From positions 1-36,164 of the forward strand of contig DASWJH010000013.1 in the NCBI GenBank assembly GCA_036397255.1: DNA of 36,164 bases. The letters are read 5' to 3'. A model generated the notes under the pieces. That model was not told where the DNA came from and ran no database searches. It saw only the letters and a program-made list of their open reading frames with translations. The translations under genes and the position numbers were made by a program. The stretch is from Nitrospiria bacterium. GTDB lineage: Bacteria; Nitrospirota; Nitrospiria; DASWJH01. Each line of letters opens with the position of its first letter. The first letter of the stretch is position 1. This document shows, piece after piece, positions 3,611 to 33,504 of the stretch.

Positions 3611-4048
3611 CTAGGGCCAATACTGGTTGGTCGCCTTGATATAACCGAACAGGATGTCCCTTCGCGCCAATACCCCCACCAGTTTTCCGCCATTCACCAC
3701 CGGCATCCGAATTAAATACTCGGCCTCAAATATCCGAATGGCTTCCTCTACCGGGGTATCTTCTTGAACCACTTTTAAATTTTTGCTCATGACCTCTCCC
3801 GCTTCAACCGAATCCAAACCACCCCCCTTCATTAAAACTTTTAATAGGTCAAACTCGCTGATGAGGCCCACCAATTTACCACTTCCATCAACCACGGGAA
3901 GAGATCCAATATTAAAATGGGTCAGTTTAGAAGCAATTTCCTTCCCAGTGTCTTCCTCCCGGCAGGAAACCACCTCCCGTTCCATAACCACCCCAACGGT
4001 GAGGGAATGAAAGTCACGCTGGCTTGAAAAAAACTCACTTTTTCTCAT
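3611..4048 (-). CDS. Two-CBS-domain protein, copy 1
   Basis: 145 residues form a stand-alone tandem CBS pair. The first domain covers about residues 15-75 (IGSLPVVDGSGKLVGLISEFDLL) and the second about 83-142 (IRMPVVNGGKLVGVLARRDI). Such Bateman modules bind adenine nucleotides and regulate partner proteins; the partner here is unknown. A paralogue of identical length lies at 28,930-29,367, with the same ending pattern (GYIKxTxxYWP). No membrane or catalytic domain is attached. Confidence 0.85.
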   Translation of the reverse strand: MRKSEFFSSQRDFHSLTVGVVMEREVVSCREEDTGKEIASKLTHFNIGSLPVVDGSGKLVGLISEFDLLKVLMKGGGLDSVEAGEVMSKNLKVVQEDTPVEEAIRIFEAEYLIRMPVVNGGKLVGVLARRDILFGYIKATNQYWP

Positions 4049-6308
<2,260 letters not shown>

Positions 6309-7661: not shown

Positions 7662-8429
7662 GTGGAATGGAATTGGACAACGTTTATTCTTGAAATTCTC
7701 AATTTTCTTGTTTTGGTGTGGCTTCTGAAGCGATTTTTGTACGTTCCCGTATTGAACATTATCGCCAAACGAAAATCCATTGTGGATAAAGCCCTTTCAG
7801 ATTCCAAAACCCTGAGGGAAGAGGCTAACGGTTTAAAAAACCAATACCAGGAACGTTTCTCAGATTGGGAAAAGGAGAAAGAAGCCCTACGGGGAAAATT
7901 CCTCGAAGCCATGGAAAGGGAACGGGAGGAACGGTTGGTTTTCTTTCAGAAAGAAATAGAACTGGAGCGGGAAAGATCTCGGGTTCTTGATGAAAGACGA
8001 CGGGGGGAGTGGATCCGCCATACGGAAGAGGTCGCAATCTCCCAGGCAGGGAAATTTTTATCGAAGTTATTATCCCGAATGGCCAACCCAGATTTGGAAA
8101 AACGAATGATTGGACTATTTCTTGAAGATCTTGAACATTTATCCCAAGAGCAGACCGAAGCGTTGAGGGTCTCTCTGTCAAAAGAAAAAGGAAAGGTGTC
8201 GGTCCTCAGTCGGTTCCCCATCGATCCCGAGCAACAAAAGGCCATTTCCCACGGGCTTTCCATTCTGGGTGGAACCAGGGTTGTTTGTACTTATTCACAG
8301 GATCCCCATCTGGTATCAGGATTAAGGATAGGGGTTGGATCTTGGGTTTTGCGGGCCAATTTATTGGATGAAATAAAATTTTTCTCAGAAGTTCCCAATC
8401 CAGAAGGATCTTCTTCCCATGAAACCTAA
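7662..8429 (+). CDS. atpF: N-type ATPase subunit b with delta-like C-terminal extension
   Basis: 255 residues. One N-terminal transmembrane helix ([20 protein letters not shown]) is followed by a long charged coiled-coil stalk (about residues 35-150). The C-terminal 100 residues ([20 protein letters not shown]...[20 protein letters not shown]) resemble the C-terminal part of the delta subunit. No separate atpH is present, as is usual for N-ATPases. The start is GTG at 7662, with GGAGG seven bases upstream. The 3' end overlaps atpA by 11 bases. Confidence 0.9.
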
Positions 8430-9894
8430 AGAATCCCTTCTGTCATCTCAAATGGCCCGGCTTGACCAATACCACTATGAATTGCGCCTGGCAGAACAGG
8501 GGACAGTAATATCTGTAGGGGATGGTATTGCATGGATCCGAGGATTGCCTTCGGCCCAAATGGATGAAATTCTAAATTTTGAAGAAGGGAGTCAGGCCCT
8601 GGTATTTCATCTAGAGCAGGAAATTCTTGGGGCCATTCTTTTACGCCAAACCAATCAAATGACCGCAGGAACGATAGCTCATCTTTCTGGACAAAGGCTA
8701 AGTGTTCCGGTTGGAGACGAGCTTTTGGGAAGGGTCATTGATCCCCTGGGGGTCCCACTGGATGGCCTTTCTAAACCCGGATGTTCGAACCGGAGAAACC
8801 TGGAAATGCCATCCCCTCCGATCCTGGCGAGGGATTTTGTAAAAAAACCTCTGTATACGGGTATTAAAGTGGTGGATTCTATGATTCCCATCGGTAAAGG
8901 TCAGCGACAGTTAATCGTGGGTGATAACGGTTTGGGAAAAACCTCCTTTGCCTTGGATTCCATAATTAATCAAAAGGGAAAAGGGACCCATTGCGTATAT
9001 GTGGTTATTGGGCAAAAACGCTCGGGTGTGGTGGAAATTATAGAAACCCTACGACGTACGAGGGCGTTGGAATACACCTCCGTGGTCGTTGCAGAAGCCA
9101 CCGCCCTACCCGGACTGAAATATTTGGGGCCTTTTGCGGGTTGTGCTGTAGCGGAAGCTTGGATGTGGCAGGGAAAAGATTGTCTTGTGGTATATGATGA
9201 TTTAACTTCCCATGCTCGAACCTACCGGGAACTGTCCCTTTTGCTTAGGCGGCCTCCAGGTCGGGAGGCCTACCCGGGGGATATTTTTTACCTTCATTCT
9301 AGATTATTGGAACGCTCTACCTGTTTGCTACCTTCTTATGGGGGAGGCAGTATGACCGCTTTCCCCATCGTGGAAACGGAACAAGGAGAGATTGCAACGT
9401 ATATTCCAACCAATTTAATTTCCATAACAGATGGACAGATTTATTTTGAGAGAGGTTTGTTTTCGAGAGGGATTTTACCTTCCATTGATGTCACACATTC
9501 TGTTTCCCGAATCGGGGGAAATGCCCAACACCCAAAGGTCCGAAACGAAGCCGGACGGATCAAACTAGATTATCTACAATTTCTTGAACTTGAAGTGTTC
9601 ACCCGGTTCGGCTCCCGTATCGAGGCCTCCATGGAGGCAAAGATTAACAGGGGAAGGGTAATACGTGAGATTTTAAAACAGAACCGGTTTTCATCCCATT
9701 CGATAGAATTCCAAATGGCCTGGATGGTGGCTTTTAATGAAGGATTGTTGGATGGATTGAAGCTTGAAAATGTTTCGGACCAATTAAAACGGTTGGAGGA
9801 AAATTTAAAAGGAAATACCATAACCCTTAGTGATACCAGGGAACAATGGGTTCAGGCTCTCCAGCGTTGGTTGGAAGATCGAGAAAAAAAATGA
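8419..9894 (+). CDS. atpA: N-type ATPase alpha subunit
   Basis: 491 residues. The N-terminal barrel (about 25-95) is followed by the nucleotide-binding domain with P-loop GDNGLGKT (168-175), preceded by [11 protein letters not shown]. This departs from the usual GDRQTGKT but keeps Gxxxx[23 protein letters not shown] and [20 protein letters not shown] are hallmark alpha motifs, and VSRIGGNAQ occupies the position of the conserved VSRVGG. It overlaps atpF at its start and atpG at its stop, implying coupled translation. Confidence 0.95.
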
Positions 9895-14527: not shown

Positions 14528-15781
14528 TTAGACCACCTTTGAGGCAACAGACCGAATATCCCGAAGCACATTTTCGGCAATGGGACCTGACCGTCGTGTC
14601 TCTTTTTGTCTGGCCAGCTCCCGGTTGATCAGATGCCAATTCAGATCTAAAAAGTAAGGTTCGGTCAAACGATCGGCGCGGGCCTCTTCAATCACCTTCT
14701 TCATTGATGCTTTGGTAATGGAGCGTCCCCCTAAACCCGCTATCACGGTATGAACCGTCATCGGTAATCCCCTCAAAGCCATCTTAACATCTCCTGAAAC
14801 TATCCCCCCTTTTCCAAGAGAAAGGTCTTTCTCCACGACAATCACATGCTGGACATTCTGAAGTGCCGAACGCAAAGGGACAGAGGGAAAGGGCCGGTAG
14901 GATCCGACTTTCAAAGACCCTACAGCCATTCCCTCTTCCCTCAAATCATCCACACATTCCTGAAGAGTTCCATTTACAGATCCTAAACCCAGCACAACCG
15001 TATCCGCATCCGTCAACCGATAGGGAGAAACCAGTTCTCCGGAAGGCCTTCCAAACCATTGCCGAAATTCCTCTGCAAGACGGGGGATCAAATCCAGGGC
15101 CTGAATCTGTTTGTAGTGGGAAAGGTAGCGGACTTCCGCAAAAGCCTCAGGCCCAACCATGGCCCCGATGGAAACAGGGTCATCGGGATCTAACACCTGA
15201 ACAGGATCGTAAGAAGGCAGAAAGGAATTCACCTGCTCCTTGGAAGGCAAATGAACTGCTTCATAGGCATGGGTCAATATAAACCCGTCCATGCAAACCA
15301 TGACAGGGCAACTCAACTCTTCCGCCAAACGAAAGGCTAAAATATGTAAATCGACCGCTTCTTGGTTATCCGCAGCATAAAGCTGAATCCACCCCGCATC
15401 TCGCATGGACATACTATCCGAATGGTCATTCCAAATATTAATCGGGGCGCCGATGGCCCGATTCCCGATGGTCATGACAATGGGTAATCCCAATCCGGAG
15501 GCGTTATAAACCGCCTCTGCCATGAACAGTAATCCTTGGCTGGCCGTAGCGGTATAAGTCCGGGCCCCCATGGCCGAAGCGCCAATTAAAATACTCAGTG
15601 CACCGAATTCGGATTCCGCATTGATGAATTGACAGTTTCCAAGTTCTCCCTTTTTCACCCGCGCTGAAAGGGTCTCTACAATATGGGTTTGTGGGGTAAT
15701 GGGATAGCAGGAGATAACTTCGGGGCAACATAGGGAAACCGCCGCAGCAACCGCTTGGGAACCTTCAATTTGGGTCAGCAT
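14528..15781 (-). CDS. porA: 2-oxoacid:acceptor oxidoreductase alpha subunit
   Basis: 417 residues. The start GSQAVAAAVSLCCPEVISCY followed by PITPQTHIVE, the glutamate region INAESEFGALSILIGASAMG, and ATASQGLLFMAEAVYNASGL mark the alpha subunit. The C-terminal half has the domain II features VVLGLGSVNGT and HVIVVEKDLSLGKGG. ATG 15781 is preferred because GGAGG is six bases upstream; GTG 15784 is in frame. Gene order on this strand is gamma-alpha-beta-NAD(P) subunit, as in Pad- and Por-type clusters. Confidence 0.92.
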   Translation of the reverse strand: MLTQIEGSQAVAAAVSLCCPEVISCYPITPQTHIVETLSARVKKGELGNCQFINAESEFGALSILIGASAMGARTYTATASQGLLFMAEAVYNASGLGLPIVMTIGNRAIGAPINIWNDHSDSMSMRDAGWIQLYAADNQEAVDLHILAFRLAEELSCPVMVCMDGFILTHAYEAVHLPSKEQVNSFLPSYDPVQVLDPDDPVSIGAMVGPEAFAEVRYLSHYKQIQALDLIPRLAEEFRQWFGRPSGELVSPYRLTDADTVVLGLGSVNGTLQECVDDLREEGMAVGSLKVGSYRPFPSVPLRSALQNVQHVIVVEKDLSLGKGGIVSGDVKMALRGLPMTVHTVIAGLGGRSITKASMKKVIEEARADRLTEPYFLDLNWHLINRELARQKETRRSGPIAENVLRDIRSVASKVV

Positions 15782-15784
15782 CAC

Positions 15785-18703: not shown

Positions 18704-19493
18704 GCAGCCCCGGCCCCGAAAACCAAAATTAGCAGTTTGGAAATTTGCTTCCTGCGATGGGTGCCAACTTAGCCTTCTGGACTGCGAAGATGACCTGCTT
18801 CTCCTTTCTGAGCAAATTCAAATTGCAAATTTTCCCGAAGCCTCTAAGGCCATCATCAAAGGGCCCTATGATCTTTCTTTGGTTGAAGGTTCCATCACGA
18901 CCCCCCATGATGCCGATCGGATTAAAAAAGTCCGGGAGTCCTCAAAATTTCTGGTGACCATCGGTGCCTGTGCCACTTCGGGGGGAATTCAAGCCCTTCG
19001 AAACTTTAAAGATGTGAATGAGTTTATTTCCATCGTCTACGCAACGCCCCAATACATTCAGACACTGGATCTCTCCACCCCCATTTCGGAGCATGTACGC
19101 GTTGATTTTGAACTCAGAGGCTGCCCCATTAATAAATCTCAACTCGTGGAAGTCATCAATGCCTTTCTTAACGAAAGGAAACCGAATACCCCTTCCCATA
19201 GTGTCTGCATGGAATGCAAATTGGCACAAGTTACCTGTGTGATGGTTGCCCATGGAACCCCGTGCTTGGGCCCGGTGACCCATGCCGGGTGCGACGCCAT
19301 TTGCCCCACGTATCACCGGGGTTGTTATGGGTGTTTCGGTCCCATGGAAACCCCCAATACACAAGCCCTTCGCACCCAATGGCTTCATCTGGGGAAAAAC
19401 GTAGACGAAATTAACCGTACCTTCCGCAGCTTTAACGCATATGCTGAACCCTTTCGCACAGAGGGCAGTTCTAATGACCCATCAAAAAAATAA
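18693..19493 (+). CDS. hydD: Group 3b [NiFe] hydrogenase small subunit
   Basis: 266 residues. The proximal-cluster motif [10 protein letters not shown] (Cys21, Cys24) lies near the N-terminus, followed by [14 protein letters not shown] and [17 protein letters not shown] with the third ligand. The C-terminal region is Cys-rich ([20 protein letters not shown] and GCYGCFGP), fitting medial and distal 4Fe-4S clusters. No Tat signal peptide is present, so the enzyme is cytosolic as expected for group 3b. The start overlaps hydG, and the stop lies 20 bases inside the large-subunit gene. Confidence 0.92.
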
Positions 19494-20775
19494 AACCATA
19501 AAAGTTGATTATCTCTCGAGGGTTGAGGGAGAGGGGGGGCTTTACATCAAGGTAAAGGATAACAAAGTCGTTGATGTCAAATTAAAAATATTCGAACCTC
19601 CCCGGTTTTTTGAAGCGTTTTTAAGAGGAAGATCGTTCACCGAGGCCCCTGATATTACCGCTCGAATTTGCGGGATCTGTCCCGTGGCCTATCAGATGAG
19701 TACGGTTCACGCCATTGAAGATGCATTTGGAATTCAGGTAGAGGAACCCATACGGCAGCTTCGCCGGCTCATTTATTGCGGGGAATGGATTGAAAGTCAC
19801 ACCCTCCACATTGTGATGCTCCATGCCCCGGACTTCCTTGGGTATGAGGATGCAATTCAGATGGCCAAAGACCACCCGGAAATTGTCCAAAGAGGACTTC
19901 AACTTAAAAAAACCGGAAACGAACTGTTAACCTTTATGGGGGGAAGGGAAATTCATCCTATTAACGTAAAGGTGGGAGGCTTTTATAAGGTCCCAACCCA
20001 AAAAGATCTACTTCCTCTCATGGAGAAATTAAAATGGGCGCGTGAGGCCGCTTTGGAAACCGTTCGATGGACGGCAACCCTTCCCTTTCCCGACATCGCC
20101 CACGATTATGAATTCGTGGCGCTGCACCACCCGGATGAGTACCCTTTTAATGAAGGCCGATTGCTTTCCAATAAAGGGTTAAACATACACATTCGGGATT
20201 ATGAACAACATTTTTCGGAAGAGCAGGTACCCTATTCCAATGCCCTTCACTCTGTATTAAGAAACAGGGCCCCCTACTTTGTGGGACCCATGGCCCGTTA
20301 CAATATCAATTTCGAAAACCTGTCACCTTTAGCTCAGCAAATATCCCGTGAGGCGGGATTATCCCCCATCTGTACCAACCCCTTTCAAAGCATTATTATT
20401 CGAAGCATTGAGGTTCTCTATGCGTGTGACGAAGCCCTGCGAATCATGGAGGATTACGAGAAGCCCAACCAACCCGCAGCCCCGGTTTCTCCACAAAAAG
20501 GAACAGGATATGGCTGCACGGAGGCCCCCCGGGGAACCCTTTATCACCGTTTTCAAGTAGATGACAATGGAATGATCAGGGATGCTAAAATTGTTCCTCC
20601 CACCTCTCAAAATCAAAAAATAATCGAAAGCGACCTTAAGGCATTCGTTGAAAAAAATTTTCATCTCTCAAAAGAAAAACTCACCTACCAATGCGAGCAA
20701 TCCATTCGAAATTATGATCCGTGTATTTCGTGTTCAACCCACTTTCTTAAACTGAACATCGATCATCTACCATGA
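19474..20775 (+). CDS. hydA: Group 3b [NiFe] hydrogenase large subunit
   Basis: 433 residues. The L1 motif [13 protein letters not shown] (Cys66, Cys69) and the C-terminal L2 motif DPCISCSTH supply the four Cys ligands of the NiFe centre. The N-terminal [18 protein letters not shown] is typical. The ten residues after His ([10 protein letters not shown]) should be the peptide removed by the maturation protease encoded next. GAGGG lies about nine bases before the ATG at 19474. All catalytic Cys are intact, so the enzyme should be functional. Confidence 0.94.
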
Positions 20776-31925: not shown

Positions 31926-32249
31926 ATGGAGAAAGAAGAAAAACTATTTCTAAAAATTTCCAAAAAACTTGAAAAGGAGAACCGTTCTGTCCGCCCTGGC
32001 AAAATGATGTCTTCCCCCGGGATCAAATACAAAGACAAAGTGTTTGCATTTTATCACAAAAAGCAAATGGTATTCAGACTGGGGAAGGGTTTTGATCCGA
32101 ATTCATTTAAAATCAAAAAATATAGTCTACTCAACCCTTTTAAAAATAAAGCTCCCATGTCAGGGTGGTTTGAAATACCTTTTTCCGAACAGACCAAATG
32201 GGAAATCCTGGCAAGGGACGCCTTACGAAACCTATTCCCGAAAAATTAA
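31926..32249 (+). CDS. TfoX-N/YjbR-like small protein
   Basis: 107 residues. MMSSPGIKYKDKVFAFYHKK followed by QMVFRLGKGFD and PMSGWFEIPF follow the pattern of small TfoX-N/YjbR-related proteins (short alpha/beta proteins with no catalytic signature). Function unknown. AAGGG is about nine bases upstream of the ATG. Its stop overlaps the ancestral stop of the convergent pseudogene. Confidence 0.6.
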   Translation: MEKEEKLFLKISKKLEKENRSVRPGKMMSSPGIKYKDKVFAFYHKKQMVFRLGKGFDPNSFKIKKYSLLNPFKNKAPMSGWFEIPFSEQTKWEILARDALRNLFPKN

Positions 32250-32643
32250 TTCTTTTTAACATATTTCTGTTTTTTATAAAAGTGATAACCCATTTTCGTA
32301 AGATTTTTAAGTTCCTTAAAAAGGACCCGATCAATGGTTTTGAAGTTGAAGCAATGGTTTTGAAGTTGAAGCAATACTTTCCATGCATCCGCTTCCGAAG
32401 TGAGTCTGATATTATTTTTAGAATCCTGGGATCTACATAAACAGGCATGAGATGAAAACTGACATAACTTTTTCGGGTTTGAACTGCCCCAAAAAAGAGG
32501 GGTTTCTTATTCTCCAAGATATGAAAAGTATCCAAATAGATATTCCCTGGCCCATCTTCTTTGCAGTCTAATACCCTCTTGTAGGGAAGCATTATTCTTC
32601 GCAGTATCCGAAAAACCGGTGTCAGTTGCTTATTTTGAACCAT
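32246..32643 (-). pseudogene. DUF1801-like or related small protein, frameshifted by a 20-bp tandem duplication
   Basis: The N-terminal 97 residues are intact, with NIYLDTFHILENKKPLFFGA and VSFHLMPVYVDPRIL of a family of small uncharacterised proteins. A 20-bp unit is present twice in tandem (32336-32355 and 32356-32375), which shifts the frame. Removing one copy restores DRVLFKELKNLTKMGYHFYK and then KQKYVKKN with a stop at 32246, giving a 125-residue protein. The unshifted frame instead reads through to 32140 inside the neighbouring gene. Confidence 0.8.
32336..32375. repeat. Perfect 20-bp tandem duplication inside a gene
   Basis: GGTTTTGAAGTTGAAGCAAT occurs twice without a mismatch. The length is not a multiple of three, so the duplication destroys the reading frame of the minus-strand gene. 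Confidence 0.95.
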
Positions 32644-32913: not shown

Positions 32914-33504
32914 ATGAATCACCGCTGCGGCTGGGTAACGGAAGATCCGCTTTATATCGAATATCATGATCAGGAATGGGGCGTACCCGTTTTTGATGAT
33001 CGGAAACTGTTTGAATTTCTGATTCTCGAATCTTTTCAGGCAGGTTTAAGTTGGTTGACGATCTTAAAAAAAAGGAGAAACTTTACAAAATCGTTTAGCC
33101 ATTTTAACCCCAAAAAAGTTGCACAATACAGCAAGAAACAGTTTGATGAATTAATGGCCAATGCTGGGATTATACGGAACAGGTTAAAAATTGAGGCTGC
33201 CATTAATAATTCAAGACAATTTTTGAATATTCAAGAAGAATTTGGAAGTTTTTCCAATTACAGTTGGGAATTTGTGGATAAACAACCCATTCAGAACCGA
33301 TGGAAAAACCTAAAGCAGGTTCCCGCAACAACCAAAGAATCTGACGCTTTCAGCATGGACCTCAAAAAAAGAGGCTTTAAATTTATGGGATCAACTGTTG
33401 TTTATGCCCACATGCAGGCCGTAGGGATGGTCAATGATCACACGATCAACTGTTTTCGGTATAAGGAGGTCACTAAAATCTCAAGGAAAAACCAACAGAA
33501 ATAA
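32914..33504 (+). CDS. tag: DNA-3-methyladenine glycosylase I
   Basis: 196 residues. It begins HRCGWVTEDPLYIEYHDQEW with Cys5 and His18; His176 and Cys180 (NDHTINC) complete the zinc site known from Escherichia coli Tag. The catalytic-pocket glutamate corresponds to Glu39 in ESFQAGLSW. It removes 3-methyladenine from alkylated DNA. It appears single-gene, with 260 bp of AT-rich, gene-free sequence upstream. Confidence 0.93.
   Translation: MNHRCGWVTEDPLYIEYHDQEWGVPVFDDRKLFEFLILESFQAGLSWLTILKKRRNFTKSFSHFNPKKVAQYSKKQFDELMANAGIIRNRLKIEAAINNSRQFLNIQEEFGSFSNYSWEFVDKQPIQNRWKNLKQVPATTKESDAFSMDLKKRGFKFMGSTVVYAHMQAVGMVNDHTINCFRYKEVTKISRKNQQK

Follow-up and report, generated by a model that had tools for sequence, protein, structure and literature searches.

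The small minus-strand gene considered here, within a 36,164-nt stretch of DNA that was analyzed as a whole (the window), raises the question of whether it has been broken by a 20-bp tandem duplication and, if so, whether this is a recent mutation, a reversible switch or an error of assembly. An original prediction, made from the letters of the sequence, had left these readings side by side. The features on which our answer rests are listed in Table 1.

Table 1. Positions of the broken gene, its duplication and its convergent neighbor in the window
Feature	Positions	Strand	Basis
ORF in its present form (167 aa; ~97 family residues followed by ~70 out-of-frame residues)	32140..32643	-	ORF list
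N-terminal part of the DUF1801/YdhG-like gene (model positions 3-96; frame of the ATG at 32643)	32347..32628	-	Profile match, E 4.4e-38
C-terminal part of the DUF1801/YdhG-like gene (model positions 87-119; another frame)	32258..32356	-	Profile match, E 5.7e-8
First copy of the 20-bp unit (+ strand: CAATGGTTTTGAAGTTGAAG)	32332..32351	-	TRF and repeat search
Second copy of the 20-bp unit, identical	32352..32371	-	TRF and repeat search
CAAT, 4-bp continuation of the match beyond the second copy	32372..32375	-	TRF and sequence; mechanism inferred
Convergent neighbor (107 aa), weakly TfoX_N-like (E 0.0042, below the Pfam cut-off)	31926..32249	+	ORF list and domain search

The exact duplication claimed at the outset is real. 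TRF described positions 32332 to 32375 as a tandem repeat with a period of 20, 2.2 copies and 100% matches, its score of 88 being the highest among the 16 TRF rows for the window, and the repeat search likewise returned two copies of 20 nt each that are 100% identical. The tetranucleotide CAAT opens each copy and also follows the second one, giving 44 bp in all with this period. We compared the duplication with other exact tandem units (periods of 9 to 300) in a genome sample consisting of the window and 40 other stretches (648,549 of 3,346,016 bases, 19%). Only two units of at least 17 bp were present, namely the 20-bp unit and a 19-bp unit in another stretch (L078, positions 3719 to 3756), which follows closely on an ORF and falls within none of the ORFs (40 aa or more) listed for that stretch; no other exact tandem unit in the sample reaches 20 bp. 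In 20 first-order Markov simulations of these 41 stretches of the same genome (648,549 bases, window included), no exact tandem unit exceeded 13 bp at the same periods, indicating that chance is not a reasonable explanation. As a separate observation, several of the few short tandem duplications contain TGACCCC (L078, 3719 to 3756; L041, 149 to 191; L040, 774 to 795), and the ORF that ends 12 bases before the L078 duplication presumably resembles a REP-associated (RAYT) transposase; duplications of this kind may belong to REP-like elements.

The perfect second copy lies inside coding sequence, and its length is not divisible by 3. The frame that carries the family-like C terminus ends with a TAA at 32246 to 32248 on the minus strand, as had been predicted for a stop at 32,246. 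The interval from 32246 to 32643 measures 398 bp, compared with 378 bp for 125 codons plus a stop codon, a difference of 20. Removal of one copy would therefore leave the 125-residue protein foreseen in the original prediction, a length within the range of the relatives described below (105 to 128 aa). The extended ORF is overlapped by the 3′ end of the convergent neighbor over 110 bp. Automatic annotation would probably list a 167-aa hypothetical protein, the last 70 residues of which are not natural family sequence. A scan around the gene returned a single promoter match and a single terminator match, which does not exceed what shuffled sequences yield, and searches with Rfam (gathering thresholds) and ARAGORN found nothing in the window. 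A full-length gene for DNA-3-methyladenine glycosylase I (tag), at 32914 to 33504 on the (+) strand, adjoins the broken gene.

A scan of GTDB species genomes with the present 167-aa protein yielded 36 loci with relatives, 29 of which entered a profile alignment, with start codons chosen by a script. The other seven did not enter it: L007 was longer (190 aa), L037 and L038 had short ORFs, and L015, L028, L030 and L034 nearly duplicated rows already in the alignment, as assessed by eye. Common to the aligned relatives are FHLMPVYV, GKSCF and a C-terminal region in which L and G are conserved. When this profile was run against the gene's own genome, it produced two overlapping matches in different frames (Table 1), which together cover model positions 3 to 119; these 117 positions need 351 nt and span 371 nt, so that the profile changes frame at the repeat and the gene is too long by exactly 20 nt, as much as one repeat unit. 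In a piecewise tblastn search (E up to 0.01), the N-terminal piece matched all 36 loci, which follows by construction since the loci had been found with the same protein, while the 35-residue C-terminal piece from the other frame matched 25 of 36, beginning at each locus where the match of the first half stops. In comparison, the present out-of-frame tail of ~70 residues, searched by itself at the same threshold, matched none of the 36. Full-length tblastn spans for L005, L007, L021 and L025 reached query residues 117 to 166, within this tail, and we read these extensions as chance because the tail alone found nothing. The match counts of the C-terminal piece and of the tail and the split profile with its 20-nt excess therefore indicate that the gene is frameshifted relative to its 29 profiled intact relatives. 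A programmed frameshift is not needed to account for two frames that are separated by an exact 20-nt repeat. The predicted gene inactivation accordingly stands as regards a frameshift caused by the duplication, whereas the actual loss of function is something that we infer.

Assignment of the family is less direct. The DUF1801 model (PF08818) matched 23 of the 29 relatives at E up to 0.1 (best 0.00046), with the relative from L003 scoring 14.8 bits against a cut-off of 27.2, and did not match the broken protein at E up to 0.1. No NCBIfam or PHROGs model matched more than one family member, and a profile search of PDB sequences gave no convincing relative (best E 0.76). The predicted fold of the L003 relative (pLDDT 96) contains a C-terminal helix at residues 96 to 115, and the first three Foldseek matches of this model in the PDB were to Bacillus YdhG and to two chains from a YdhG-like protein of Listeria that carries the title frataxin. 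These entries (9t2w, titled frataxin, and 2oc6) matched with a TM score of about 0.5 and E-values of 0.0038 to 0.035, none reaching 0.001. We call the encoded protein DUF1801/YdhG-like, a divergent relative rather than a member. For the frameshifted 167-aa protein, AlphaFold gave a pLDDT of 77.5, with residues 135 to 145 and 147 to 167 below 50, and still placed a helix at 102 to 125, from an input alignment that set the out-of-frame tail against the tails of the relatives. Retention of this helix in the prediction means that total loss of function is not proved; given the replaced conserved C terminus, the frameshifted product has most likely lost its function.

Searches of the other 39 genomes in a first relatives sample did not find the gene, nor was there a match in the remaining 195 genomes of the class sample (E up to 0.001) or in the remaining 394 of the phylum sample (E up to 1e-6); the three samples overlap. 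From this patchy distribution the gene appears to be sporadic, dispensable and probably acquired horizontally. The 36 relatives comprise, by record titles and by what we take to be the placement of the genera, 29 Proteobacteria, 3 Chloroflexi, 2 Bacillota, 1 Acidobacteria and 1 Planctomycetota, and tblastn of the neighboring TfoX_N-like, Tag, methyltransferase and macro-domain proteins gave no match (E up to 0.01) at their loci. A plasmid collection yielded a single relative, from Croceicoccus marinus (1.03-Mb record; 46% identity, E 4e-14), and no DNA match. Among viral contigs, a profile scan confirmed no relative in 9 candidate stretches. The 20-mer occurs exactly in four viral contigs, and these were rejected as variants of the gene, since tblastn with the N-terminal piece found nothing in three of them and a 15-residue match (E 0.49) in the fourth; we took all four occurrences as chance. 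Elsewhere in the window, the region from 4524 to 26371 contains a nickel-dependent hydrogenase gene (19441 to 20775) with HypF and HypD, as well as an AIR-synthase-like gene that we take to be a hypE candidate. A POR_N/PFOR_II gene lies at 14528 to 15784, and there are two genes of the ATP-synthase alpha/beta family, one at 4524 to 5918 (with a V/A-type C-terminal domain) and the other at 8419 to 9894.

Next, we consider how far the gene has decayed. Aligned as separate rows, its two halves keep 26 of the 29 columns that are conserved at 90% or more and deviate at 3; in a leave-one-out comparison, at least as many deviations at these columns occur in 5 of the 29 intact relatives. Among 16 strictly invariant columns, which are not an unbiased set because the relatives were partly chosen by conserved peptides of the query, the broken gene differs at two (L to I, and S to Y beside the duplication), a number matched by only 1 of 29 relatives when each was left out in turn. 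A Q to H change at a nearly invariant column is also near the duplication. The two differences at invariant columns could reflect older relaxation or simple divergence, and overall the sequence suggests no clear decay and a mild sign of divergence, located partly beside the duplication. The broken gene is probably young, as each half still looks almost like an ordinary member of the family; perfect copies and family-like halves agree with the originally proposed event having been recent, though undated. The tyrosine that replaces the strictly invariant serine is encoded at 32374 to 32376 on the minus strand, and the codon for it contributes to the outer ATTG (CAAT) microhomology. As speculation, the substitution may have preceded the duplication and favored it.

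Strand slippage between two short direct repeats during replication gives rise to a tandem duplication with flanking microhomology. The reading that we favor, with a probability of about 76%, is that slippage produced the 20-bp duplication and so frameshifted a sporadic DUF1801/YdhG-like gene, i.e., that this is an ordinary loss-of-function mutation. Specifically, a small gene (~125 aa) of sporadic occurrence and probably horizontal origin would have acquired the 20-bp tandem duplication spontaneously, probably when the replicating strand slipped between two CAAT tetramers, which read ATTG on the coding strand and lie 20 bp apart. An insertion of 20 bp, not being divisible by 3, would have shifted the frame from about residue 97 onward; ~70 unrelated residues would have taken the place of the conserved C-terminal helix, and the ORF would now run into the convergent neighbor. 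With a product that is most likely non-functional, the locus would be either a pseudogene of recent origin or a loss-of-function allele that is still segregating, and reversion would be possible at low frequency, as for any short perfect tandem duplication. The locus may offer a clean example of a dispensable gene lost in one step, with the likely mechanism, a duplication flanked by microhomology, still legible.

Other sources of the duplication were considered and set aside. As a partner for recombination, a second genomic copy is not apparent, the protein matching itself alone in its own genome (E up to 0.001). The window also carries a canonical DUF1801 domain at 538 to 807 (−), which exceeds the Pfam cut-off (40.2 bits), and blastp found no match between it and the broken gene at E up to 10. 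As for the footprint of a mobile element, the repeat search found three imperfect inverted pairs of 11 to 20 nt between 32200 and 32700; none abuts the unit, and a pair of 14 nt (86%) flanks the site at a distance of over 80 bp in each direction.

The alternative that survives best, while still unlikely, is that the cell carries a single copy and that the second was added in assembly or consensus building, for example by an uncollapsed 20-base contig overlap or an error of read correction. An overlap of 20 bp is what graphs with k = 21 leave behind, and the unit is exactly 20 bp, its copies are perfect, both halves of the gene are otherwise nearly intact and the assembly is in 122 contigs. However, no recurrent 20-bp signature is present in the 19% sample, where the only other unit of at least 17 bp is the 19-bp one in L078, and this lack of recurrence makes a systematic fault of assembly unlikely. 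In addition, slippage predicts the 4-bp extra match beyond the second copy, whereas a blind 20-bp join seldom yields as much: doubling each possible 20-mer of the window gave 4 or more extra matching bases at 746 of 35,964 sites (2.1%).

Spontaneous sequence duplications in pneumococcal capsule ORFs (the type 3 capsule locus, cap8E/wchA and tts) were reportedly described by Waite et al. in 2001 and 2003. By analogy, the duplication might arise and be excised often enough for the population to be mixed, as in those capsule genes, which we regard as very unlikely for this gene. An even more specific form, in which CAAT-flanked slippage adds or removes the unit, one-copy and two-copy cells coexist and a YdhG/frataxin-like protein is turned off and on, receives scant credence from us. 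The configuration, a tandem duplication within an ORF that abolishes the product, is the one described for pneumococcus in PMC4022640, and reversibility in principle is the other point in favor of a switch. The same paper reports that tandem duplications within capsule ORFs abolish the product, are potentially revertible and cause phase variation, and gives an expected reversion of about 1e-5 at most, with insertions of at longest 9 bp. Against a switch, there are only two copies here rather than a multi-copy tract. The 36 relatives' loci contain no exact tandem unit of 12 to 120 bp inside the gene; their exact tandem units of at least 12 bp (three rows, in L025 and L028, periods of 12 to 120) all lie outside it, so that the site does not appear to be recurrently unstable in the family. 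Nor did the family and fold searches point to a surface or capsule enzyme. The phase-variation-like switch of the original prediction thus found no positive support in two copies seen in one sequence, and an ordinary loss-of-function mutation is preferred as the simple reading. The locus would bear on a larger question only if a mixed population of one-copy and two-copy cells were true.

Finally, it is scarcely credible that the frameshifted protein functions with its new C terminus: 167 codons are open, AlphaFold predicts the helix at 102 to 125 and tblastn spans enter the tail at 4 of 36 loci, but the tail alone matches at none of the 36 (E up to 0.01), 110 bp are antisense to the convergent gene, confidence is low from residue 135 on and the conserved C-terminal L and G columns are replaced.

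Compared with known systems, the broken gene resembles the pneumococcal capsule ORFs in having a tandem duplication within an ORF, a probably abolished product and the potential to revert; it differs in that high-frequency capsule phase variation is named in the titles of that literature, whereas the broken gene is known from one sequence and has no assigned role. Its resemblance to DUF1801/YdhG proteins (PF08818; PDB 2oc6 and 9t2w) consists of the weak Pfam matches of its relatives and of best fold matches that are YdhG-like, while its group is divergent and has moderate fold matches, the L003 relative falls below the Pfam cut-off and the broken protein itself has no Pfam match to the model at E up to 0.1. 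With ordinary pseudogenes made by slipped-strand duplication, as generally understood, it shares a unit of tens of base pairs, a short microhomology (CAAT), a frameshift and a sporadic gene, and from these it shows no evident difference.
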